NCBI GenBank assembly: GCA_023383705.1
Contig: JAHDYM010000004.1
Location: 1 to 64,000 of the forward strand
Length of the DNA: 64,000 bases
Reading direction: 5' to 3'
Origin: Gammaproteobacteria bacterium
GTDB taxonomy: Bacteria; Pseudomonadota; Gammaproteobacteria; Steroidobacterales; GCA-2729495
Of the stretch, positions 54,940 to 57,953 are shown piece after piece. Position numbers and translations under genes: made by a program. The notes under the pieces are model-generated. The model made no database searches. It was not told the origin of the DNA and saw only the letters and a program-made list of their open reading frames with translations. The number at the start of each line of letters is the position of its first letter. Position 1 is the first letter of the stretch.

Positions 54940-56742
54940 TCAGGGCGTGACGATCTTCTTCCAGACCTTCGCGCCCAGGTAGGCACCCAGCAGCGGGCTG
55001 TCGCTCGGCGGGGTCCACAGCGCCCAGGTGCCGGTGTACTGGTTCTGCACCGGCGCATTCACGTCCGCTGCGCCCTGGGCCGGGTCATAGCCGAGGTGGC
55101 CGTACTCGGACACGGCCCAGGCGAGGTTGGGATCCAGCGCACTGATCGGCGAGGTGGCCGAGGACTGCCGCAGCGGCGGATAGGGCTGCGTGCTGGCAGG
55201 ACAGCCACCCATCACGAAGCAGCAGGCTTCGGTTGCCGTGCTGCCGGGGATCCTGCACTGCGTGTTTGCCCAGTTGCCCCAGTAGGCAGCAAAGGGATGG
55301 CCGACACCCGGGTAGGTGTCGTAGTCCTTCGTGTTCCAGTACAGCCAGTTCTTGTAGCCGATCTCCTTGGCGATCTGGTTCGGGATCTCGACCAGGCTGA
55401 GGACCGATTCCGACATGATCTGCGGGAAGGCGACGATGATGTGCTTGATGCCGCGGTTCTTCAGTTCCTCCAGCGCATCCCAGTACAGGTAGCCGTCGAG
55501 GCCCTGGGGCAACACGTCATGGCTCTCGTACAGCCAGGCCTCGCCGAGATTCTCGCCACGCATGGCGCGCGTGCGCTCCATCTGCGAGAAGGTGGGCGGC
55601 CTCGGGATGATGCCCGGGTTGACCTCGGAGCGTCCGAACCAGGCGCCCATGATGTTCTGCTCCGCGATCTGCGGGAACACCGTGCGCAGCGCTTGGCGGA
55701 TGTTCCGGTTCAGCACCAGCGTGTCGTCGATCTTCGGGTCGAACCACTGCTTGTTGGCACCGACATGGTGATTCATCAGCAGCACGGCGGTGTCGGCCAG
55801 CGGCACCCTGGTGTTGATCGCCCGGGCGATGCCCACCACCTGGATCCAGGCGAGTGCCGGGTCTTCGGTGAAGGGGTTAGGCCGGCCGGCCAGGGGTACC
55901 GCGGCGTCAGTGACCGGTGCACCGAGCGAGGAGGTCCAGTTTGCCGGTGCGGTGGGGTAGGAGGCGGTCATCAGGTTGGAAGGATCGTTGACCCACTCCA
56001 CGCTGACGCTCTTCCCGTTCGCAGCGTTCCAGGCGCTGACCACCTTGCGGGTTTCGCTGATCTGCTCGAAGGTCTTCCAGAAGCGCACGCCGCTGGTGGT
56101 GGTGTCGACGACGATCAGCCGGCTGATGTCGTTGGCCAGCATGCGTTCAACCGCACCGTCCACGTTGTAGCGCTGCGGATCACAGCCGGCCCAGGGGCCA
56201 CCATCCGCGGGGCTGCCGCAGTAGGTGAGCGCGGCGCCACCGGCCACCTGCGGGTTGTACATGCCGCGCGGATTCGGCAGGTCGGCCGGGTTGTCGCTGA
56301 TCCAGCTCATCTTGCCGGTGAACACCGAGATGGTCTTGCGGGTCTTCAGCTTGTAAACGGCGGCCTGCAGGTTCAGGGCGGTGGTCATCTGCGCCAGCTG
56401 GGTGTCGGTGATCGTGTTGTAGCGATCCTGGCCGCCGATGCGCGGGTATTCGAAGTCGTATTTCTTCGACTGGGCCAGGCCGCTCGGATCGGTCAGCATC
56501 AATGGCCAGAATGTGGGATTCCAGATGATGTTCTTGTAACCGAATGAATTTGCATCGTAATAAAACATCTGGGCGCTCGAGTCCCAAGCCTTTTGCGGGC
56601 CCCAGGTGGTGGCGCCGCCATGCACGGCATACAGCACGCCGATGCGCTCCGGCGGGCTGGGTGGCGCGGCGCCAGCTTGGCTGGCCATGGTCAGGCACAG
56701 GGCGGCCAGCAGGCCGGCCCCGACGTTCTTGTCAGCTCGCAT
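54940..56742 (-). CDS. large exported protein of unclear family; possible remote ferrochelatase/CbiK-like fold
   Basis: Sec signal peptide MRADKNVGAGLLAALCLTMASQAGA|APP; GGGAGAG SD; GVLYAVHGG near the N-terminus; long minus-strand ORF with its own terminator. Confidence 0.85.
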   Translation of the reverse strand: MRADKNVGAGLLAALCLTMASQAGAAPPSPPERIGVLYAVHGGATTWGPQKAWDSSAQMFYYDANSFGYKNIIWNPTFWPLMLTDPSGLAQSKKYDFEYPRIGGQDRYNTITDTQLAQMTTALNLQAAVYKLKTRKTISVFTGKMSWISDNPADLPNPRGMYNPQVAGGAALTYCGSPADGGPWAGCDPQRYNVDGAVERMLANDISRLIVVDTTTSGVRFWKTFEQISETRKVVSAWNAANGKSVSVEWVNDPSNLMTASYPTAPANWTSSLGAPVTDAAVPLAGRPNPFTEDPALAWIQVVGIARAINTRVPLADTAVLLMNHHVGANKQWFDPKIDDTLVLNRNIRQALRTVFPQIAEQNIMGAWFGRSEVNPGIIPRPPTFSQMERTRAMRGENLGEAWLYESHDVLPQGLDGYLYWDALEELKNRGIKHIIVAFPQIMSESVLSLVEIPNQIAKEIGYKNWLYWNTKDYDTYPGVGHPFAAYWGNWANTQCRIPGSTATEACCFVMGGCPASTQPYPPLRQSSATSPISALDPNLAWAVSEYGHLGYDPAQGAADVNAPVQNQYTGTWALWTPPSDSPLLGAYLGAKVWKKIVTP

Positions 56743-56794
56743 CGTTCTCTCCCCCGAGTTTGAGTTGGATGACGGATTTCCCGTCTGCGTCCCG

Positions 56795-56824
56795 ACTATT
56801 TGCCGCGCCCCGGGGCGGTCGCAA
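56795..56824 (-). promoter_or_regulatory. candidate promoter for the exported-protein gene
   Basis: minus-strand TTGCGA (56819-56824), 18-bp spacer, AATAGT (56795-56800); CGCCCCGGGGCG palindrome inside the spacer. Confidence 0.35.
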
Positions 56825-56906
56825 GCGGAAAGTCTTGAATTGAGGGGTATTTGTCCTGAACGACGATTCACGCCAGCGTTCTGGCATGAATGCAGGCTCC
56901 GCAGGC

Positions 56907-56922
56907 AGCCGGTGCACCGGCT
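56907..56922. promoter_or_regulatory. perfect 16-bp palindrome AGCCGGTGCACCGGCT in the divergent intergenic region
   Basis: self reverse-complementary sequence between two divergent starts. Confidence 0.55.
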
Positions 56923-56996
56923 TGCGCCCTGGCGGCCACTCATGGCATTAATGACCGGCGCCATCCCTCAGACAAACAGAACACCCCGGGATCACG

Positions 56997-57953
56997 GTGA
57001 CGACCCAACCGCTCACGGCAGGCTGGAGCAGCGCAGGTGAGGTCCAAGCGGGCCAGGCGCCACGTCCGCGCGGCCGTAAACCGGCCCGCAAGGACTACCT
57101 CTGGTTCCTGCTGGTCATCCCGCTGCTGATCTCGCTGTGGTTCGCGGCGATGCGCGTCCGGCCGGTCGGTGAACTCGGCTTTGCTGTTGGCTGGCTGTAC
57201 CTCGGCAGCCGGATCATGGTGGCGTGGTGGGGTGCGCATCTGGGTGCACTGGCCGCGGCCTGGCTGGTGCGTGACCGCAACTGGCCCTTGTGGCGGATAT
57301 TGCTGCTGGGCTTTCTCATCGCCTGGTTGCCGCTCACCGGGCTCTTCCATCTGCACCTGCAGTTCATTTCCGTGCTGTACCCCGATCAGCTGGGCAGCCT
57401 GTCGCTGCGCGAGATGACGTTCAGCGCCGACTACCTGTGGCGGCTGACCAGCCGCTCGCTGCCGCCATTCCTGCCGCTGTGGATGGGCGTGGTGCATGCC
57501 TACCGGCGGCAGTTCGGCGTGGACTGGTACACCGCCCGCGACCCGGCGCCGGCGTCGGCCGTTGTCGAGGTGCCGAAGGCTGTCGCCGCTGCGCTGCCGG
57601 TTGCGGCCACGGCGCGGCCAGCTTTCCTCCAGCAATCGAGGCTTGCCGACAGCGCCAGGCCCAAGACGCTGAAGGCCGCCGAGCACTACATCGAGATCGT
57701 GGCCGACTGCGGCAGCGACCTGGTGCGCTATCGCTTCAACGATGCGATCCAGGCCATGGCGCCGCTGGATATCGGCGGGCAGGTGCACCGTTCCTGGTGG
57801 GTCCGCTGGGACTGCGTGGCGCGCGTCGTGCAGCGGGGCGGTGCGCTGGAGTTGCTGCTCGATGACGGGCGCACTATCCCCGTCAGTCAGGCTTACAAGA
57901 GCGAAGTGCGGCGCCGCTGTGCCGGCCACGGCAACAGCCCTGTGCGCAGCTGA
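56997..57953 (+). CDS. membrane-anchored LytTR-domain DNA-binding regulator, GTG start
   Basis: several N-terminal TM helices; C-terminal AEHYIEIVADCGSDLVRYRFNDAIQ...HRSWWVRWDCVARV...LLLDDGRTIPVSQAYKSEVRRR LytTR pattern. Confidence 0.85.
   Translation: MTTQPLTAGWSSAGEVQAGQAPRPRGRKPARKDYLWFLLVIPLLISLWFAAMRVRPVGELGFAVGWLYLGSRIMVAWWGAHLGALAAAWLVRDRNWPLWRILLLGFLIAWLPLTGLFHLHLQFISVLYPDQLGSLSLREMTFSADYLWRLTSRSLPPFLPLWMGVVHAYRRQFGVDWYTARDPAPASAVVEVPKAVAAALPVAATARPAFLQQSRLADSARPKTLKAAEHYIEIVADCGSDLVRYRFNDAIQAMAPLDIGGQVHRSWWVRWDCVARVVQRGGALELLLDDGRTIPVSQAYKSEVRRRCAGHGNSPVRS

Follow-up and report, generated by a model that had tools for sequence, protein, structure and literature searches.

An exported protein family with the ferrochelatase fold, found mostly in genomes without HemE, and its local pairing with a membrane LytTR regulator

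The 64-kb stretch of DNA analysed here (the window) encodes P0001, the first recognised member of a previously undescribed family of exported proteins. This family, called family A here, has the class II chelatase fold and forms a new branch of the ferrochelatase fold whose members are exported. Family A is most likely an extracytoplasmic heme- or porphyrin-binding protein of bacteria unable to make heme; this reading has a probability of roughly 0.48, and we infer the ligand and the role of the family at about even odds. Two things can be separated at the locus: a ferrochelatase-fold family of wide occurrence, and the pairing of its gene, probably regulatory and local to one small clade, with a divergent gene for a membrane LytTR protein, P0002. 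The earlier note on this DNA had proposed the pair as an undescribed system; as a general pair it does not hold, since nearly all other loci of the exported family have no LytTR gene.

The features of the locus are given in Table 1. The start used for P0001 is the ATG at 56742, which gives the protein the N-terminal signal peptide MRADKNVGAGLLAALCLTMASQAGA and has the Shine-Dalgarno site GGGGGAGA upstream; the open reading frame as called mechanically, from 56964, is too long. Nearly all P0001 homologues have a similar leader, either hydrophobic or of the lipoprotein type, at their start. A terminator scan returned three sites versus 1.4 expected in shuffles, the terminator of P0001 being by far the longest. 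A large exported protein with a signal peptide, its own Shine-Dalgarno site and a minus-strand terminator could thus be located just as the earlier note had claimed. P0001 is a real coding sequence, since many full-length homologues exist in related and public genomes: among 60 related genomes, 24 contain relatives of P0001 and more than 20 full-length homologues share 43–89% identity with it, and in a public genome collection 67 loci with homologues were found.

Table 1. Features of the P0001/P0002 locus (positions in the window).
Feature	Position	Strand	Basis
Intrinsic terminator of P0001 gene	54858..54884	-	Hairpin, 12-pair stem, T tail
P0001, exported ferrochelatase-fold protein, 600 aa	54940..56742	-	Homologues; AlphaFold + Foldseek; HemH profile alignment
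Leu448 codon, at catalytic Glu position (human E343)	55399..55401	-	Profile alignment
Invariant His325 codon, at catalytic His position (human H263)	55768..55770	-	Profile alignment
Invariant His41 codon, at human ferrochelatase Met76 / B. subtilis Tyr13 position	56620..56622	-	Profile alignment
P0001 signal peptide region, ~residues 1-25	56668..56742	-	Read from sequence
Shared divergent intergenic (promoter/operator) region, 254 bp	56743..56996	.	Layout common to G001, G004, G013; alignment partly conserved
Candidate operator repeat 1 (TGGCATGAA)	56882..56890	+	TGGCATKAA site; motif chosen after seeing alignment
Candidate operator repeat 2 (TGGCATTAA)	56943..56951	+	TGGCATKAA site; motif chosen after seeing alignment
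P0002, membrane-anchored LytTR transcription regulator, 318 aa	56997..57953	+	Pfam LytTR; hydropathy
P0002 hydrophobic (transmembrane) region, residues 34-119	57096..57353	+	Hydropathy
LytTR DNA-binding domain of P0002, residues 225-306	57669..57914	+	Pfam PF04397

P0001 alone has no match in Pfam, NCBIfam, PHROGs or the PDB sequences, including PF00762 at its curated cut-off. A profile search of the PDB returned only a mannanase (E 0.23), which was taken as chance, and a Foldseek search of viral models returned nothing. The AlphaFold model, for which an alignment of 25 family members served as input, has a pLDDT of 85.6 and a pTM of 0.86. Its 43 best PDB matches in Foldseek turned out to be all ferrochelatases (yeast, human, Bacillus, Listeria) with E from 2.8e-9 to 1.2e-4; periplasmic CbiK follows as a distant match (E 0.055), and a sugar-binding protein ranks just below the chelatases. 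Independently of the structure model, a family A profile aligns with one built from the HemH proteins of related genomes, and the alignment spans HemH from end to end (E 2e-6; N-terminal half alone, 2e-5). The Pfam Ferrochelatase family (PF00762) shows weak matches in 6 of 25 family A members, the best at 9.7e-4. The class II chelatase (ferrochelatase) fold of P0001 is nearly certain. The earlier note had called the family unclear and had suggested AlphaFold and Foldseek for the exported protein; both were run and gave ferrochelatases, so "unclear" is still correct with regard to curated sequence families, none of which was matched, but not with regard to the fold.

The profile alignment places P0001 "VLYAVHGG" on HemH "VLLVNLGT", "LLMNHH" on "LLFSFHG", and "SESVLSLVEI" on "ADCLETLEEI", which sets the registers of His41 and His325 and puts Leu448 and Glu452 at Glu343 and Glu347, respectively. 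The human residue numbers (Met76, His263, Glu343, Glu347) and B. subtilis Tyr13 were assigned to the HemH columns from the known sequences of those enzymes. His325 is conserved in 65 of 65 family A members and His41 in all 61 with residues there; Leu occupies the Leu448 position in 62 of 65, and Glu452 is invariant. Six Cys (175, 187, 496, 507, 508 and 514) are also conserved and may form disulfides. According to a review, M76 of human ferrochelatase faces the catalytic H263, no H263 variant is active, and E343K, likewise inactive, is purified with protoporphyrin still bound (PMC9133952). In HmuS, heme is bound in a ferrochelatase-like head/neck cleft via Met79 and His254 (PMC12583661). The simplest reading of the family A residues predicts a tetrapyrrole-binding protein with one His per face. 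The tetrapyrrole would sit in the ferrochelatase cleft of P0001, outside the cytoplasm, one face being held by His325, the former catalytic His, and the other by His41, at the former metal-ligand position; the loss of the catalytic Glu (Leu448) would disfavour normal iron insertion. In bacteria unable to make heme or porphyrin, such a protein would serve to catch the scavenged compound, to keep it bound or to pass it on.

Four heme-pathway genes were scored: HemE (by PF01208), HemH, HemB and AhbD. HemE is present in 346 and absent from 24 of 370 surveyed Gammaproteobacteria with completeness of at least 90%. The carriers of family A are nearly all MAGs. In counts that ignore kinship and MAG gaps, 20 of the 24 related genomes with family A have no HemE, and 37 of 39 additional carrier genomes, among them Alphaproteobacteria, members of several clades of Gammaproteobacteria and delta-like bacteria, are without a convincing HemE. 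After removal of one duplicate genome, this amounts to 56 of 62 carriers without HemE; G090, with only a 54-residue fragment match, was counted as one of them. For Gammaproteobacteria only, the figure is 37 of 41 (Fisher p ~1e-32, ignoring kinship). The carriers fall in several separate clades of the family tree, and the link between family A and HemE absence is therefore unlikely to reflect one event. Within the window's order, outside the window's family, both carriers are without HemE, and none of the 20 HemE-positive genomes carries family A. HemE-type genes are present in four carriers among the relatives (G013, G025, G027 and G033). HemH is kept by 17 of the 39 additional carriers. Many genomes keep canonical HemH without HemE (e.g., G060, G062, G066, G073, G075 and G085), as would be expected of bacteria that import porphyrin. 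HemE loss and family A could also both mark certain uncultured lineages, and Thermodesulfobacteriota may lack HemE for other reasons (the Ahb route).

The window's bacterial family is mostly without HemE, keeps HemB, and lacks HemH in most genomes, single-contig ones included. In the window's own genome (G000), neither HemE nor HemH was found, and no AhbD match passes the cut-off. HemE absence alone is no proof of heme auxotrophy, HemB being kept; the family is a probable case of heme auxotrophy in free-living Gammaproteobacteria. The own genome probably needs heme, since a c-type cytochrome is encoded near its second family A gene. This second copy (L137, G000:C116:2521-4275), 51% identical to P0001, belongs to a clade beside Alphaproteobacterial members and is followed by an F420/FMN-type LLM oxidoreductase gene. 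A siroheme-dependent (Ahb) route in place of HemE is not indicated in the window's family, where TIGR04545 (AhbD) matches are all below the cut-off and mostly at the level of generic radical-SAM proteins; scores are higher in G027 and G058, still below the cut-off. The idea that P0001 substitutes for a missing cytoplasmic HemH was rejected, as the protein is exported and without the Glu, and HemH is kept in 17 of the 39 other carriers.

P0002, which starts with GTG, has three strong hydrophobic segments by hydropathy (residues 34-52, 73-91 and 101-119) and matches PF04397 with E 4.6e-8 (33.6 bits vs. a curated cut-off of 22.6). Pfam finds LytTR only; a receiver domain is absent, and the N-terminal hydrophobic segments stand in its place. 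The divergent layout described in the earlier note is present, and a LytTR gene adjoins family A in the same way in G001, G004 and G013 as in G000. The exported proteins of G001 and G013 are 89% and 69% identical to P0001, respectively, whereas the G004 contig begins inside the signal peptide of its family A gene, and this member was left out of the family tree because the contig breaks inside the gene. In the tree, P0001 and the G001 and G013 members form a fully supported clade with L065 (G031); the latter is without a LytTR neighbour, so the pairing occurs in four of five members of P0001's clade. No LytTR neighbour was seen at the other family A loci surveyed, and P0002 homologues occur in other genomes without family A nearby. 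A count of co-occurrence, which the earlier note had suggested, thus confines the pairing to one small clade: it is real but local.

The motif TGGCATKAA has only two sites in the window, both in the P0001/P0002 intergenic region, 61 bp apart, and pairs of GGCATKAA lie in the corresponding region 64 bp apart in G001 and 66 bp apart in G004. Shuffles of the whole window gave at least two matches in 15 of 100 cases, so that only the co-location is notable. The LytTR consensus 9-mer was sought in the intergenic region and not found. The GGCATKAA repeats are a candidate operator, no more. Taken with the conserved divergent layout, they make it plausible that P0002 controls P0001: in the window's lineage, the membrane LytTR protein would probably sense an envelope signal and act on the P0001 gene through the shared intergenic region. 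It is possible, although we would not bet on it, that the LytTR gene is unrelated to P0001 and that the layout is merely an inherited neighbourhood, as it is seen at four loci of one clade only and the G013 neighbour is just 33% identical to P0002, below another LytTR protein encoded elsewhere in G013. However, the pairing is kept in G013 at 69% identity of the exported protein and with different outer neighbours, and three genomes have the paired repeats in the intergenic region only.

The immediate neighbours of family A vary by clade. With the frequency in more distant sequence taken as the expectation, DUF1838 is found near 22 loci (3.2 expected), an FAD oxidase near 13 (1.6), an MFS transporter near 10 (2.1), HiPIP near 7 (0) and a CpeT-like protein near 6 (1.1); hydrolases, VOC and Rieske genes are neighbours in some clades. 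For most of the statistically supported neighbours (DUF1838, FAD oxidase, HiPIP, MFS) no tetrapyrrole function is known, and across the surveyed loci nothing that is clearly a heme transporter was consistently adjacent. Direct tetrapyrrole links are few, and for this reason the tetrapyrrole role is argued mainly from the fold, the residues and the phylogenetic profile rather than from the gene neighbourhood. Two candidates were rejected: LLM oxidoreductase as a partner of family A (3 near vs. 1.1 expected, not significant), and a chlorophyll breakdown operon of chlorophyllase-like hydrolase, CpeT-like protein and Rieske protein, in which the hydrolase match is generic and the Rieske proteins are of the VanA type.

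Several loci deserve separate mention. The gene at L124:11510-12421 shares its operon with family A and HiPIP and encodes a HemD-like protein with an apparent signal peptide, apparently an exported uroporphyrinogen-III-synthase fold. In G013, a cluster (L172, G013:C9:8000-27999) ~15–30 kb from the P0001 orthologue on the same contig contains HemD, three HemE-type genes, geranylgeranyl-reductase-like FAD proteins and a PPOX/F420-type protein, together with a TonB receptor and a peptide-type ABC binding protein; a cluster of this type is repeated in G025 (L174, G025:C109). Gammaproteobacteria of the marine and sponge type have, tightly coupled to family A on its downstream side, DUF1838 proteins whose leader is of the exported type (L081-L122, e.g., L107:5345-6211); DUF1838 proteins are almost absent from the literature searched.

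These catabolic-looking, clade-variable neighbours (DUF1838, FAD oxidase, MFS, hydrolases, VOC, Rieske) would fit a periplasmic protein that binds or converts a substrate other than a tetrapyrrole and was co-opted into catabolic operons, the more so as the chelatase fold resembles that of type I periplasmic binding proteins and the sugar-binding protein follows directly after the chelatases in the Foldseek ranking. We consider this unlikely: the significant fold matches are all ferrochelatases and include no binding proteins, exactly the two metal-flanking positions are invariant, and the HemE-loss profile spans unrelated lineages. Least probable of all is an active exported chelatase or de-chelatase, functionally HmuS-like but of class II fold, which would strip iron from scavenged heme or swap porphyrin metals: the catalytic His and Glu452 at the E347 position are invariant, HmuS de-chelates heme in heme-auxotrophic Bacteroides (PMC12583661) and the HemH present in about half of the additional carriers could re-metallate imported porphyrin, but Leu stands at the E343 position, where human variants are impaired or inactive (PMC9133952), and a second His opposite the first is expected of a binding site, not of an open metal-entry site.

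Another group of proteins with the ferrochelatase fold, family B, was found in related genomes by the Ferrochelatase Pfam search. These proteins of ~490 aa have an N-terminal membrane anchor and are encoded at L157-L163, L166, L160:1285-2751 (G001), L178:5699-7171 (G005) and L176 (G015), with an F420-type LLM oxidoreductase gene adjoining in G001 and G005. The family B model is moderate (pLDDT 69), with ferrochelatases again first in the fold search; the catalytic His is kept, and Asp occupies the E343 position. Family B occurs in one of the 370 surveyed genomes, which is without HemE. Profile comparison detected no relation between families A and B beyond the common fold. It is a rather doubtful suggestion that in free-living heme-auxotrophic proteobacteria family A (soluble or lipoprotein) and family B (membrane-anchored) together make up an extracytoplasmic heme/porphyrin salvage that replaces synthesis, in which A would trap the tetrapyrrole by bis-His ligation and B may change its metal.

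Among uncultured bacteria, heme auxotrophs are reported to be common, and many of those from sediment and water show no known heme acceptor (PMC11139205). Family A, whose carriers mostly lack HemE, is a candidate for the missing heme-acquisition step; uncultured bacteria without HemE may use it, in a way so far unrecognised, to obtain heme or porphyrins. If so, the fold of an essential biosynthetic enzyme has been re-used for scavenging. A phrase search of the literature covered here for an exported or periplasmic ferrochelatase found no paper.

Among known systems, family A shares with HemH/CpfC (PF00762) the two-domain class II chelatase fold and the catalytic His position. However, P0001 is exported, whereas HemH acts on the cytoplasmic side without an export signal; it has 600 aa vs. 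~340–370, an identity of ~11%, no Pfam match, Leu for the catalytic Glu, His at the M76 position and six conserved Cys, and its family is often found in genomes without HemE. P0002 resembles the membrane-anchored LytTR one-component regulators (PF04397) in its N-terminal membrane segments and C-terminal LytTR domain; what sets it apart is the divergently placed gene for a ferrochelatase-fold protein, an arrangement confined to a single clade, and it is without a receiver domain. For exported proteins, the class II chelatase fold has its closest precedent in the periplasmic CbiK of Desulfovibrio vulgaris (2xvx, 2xvz), a cobalt chelatase of 262 aa that matches P0001 only at E about 0.06. HmuS of Bacteroides is likewise a chelatase that handles heme in heme auxotrophs, and its cleft ligates heme from both sides (PMC12583661). 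HmuS is a six-domain class I (CobN/ChlH-like) protein with Met/His ligands, encoded in the hmu operon, and has no direct relation to P0001, which, with its class II fold, is without that six-domain architecture; for a similar two-sided ligation of heme in P0001, His41 and His325 are the predicted candidate ligands.
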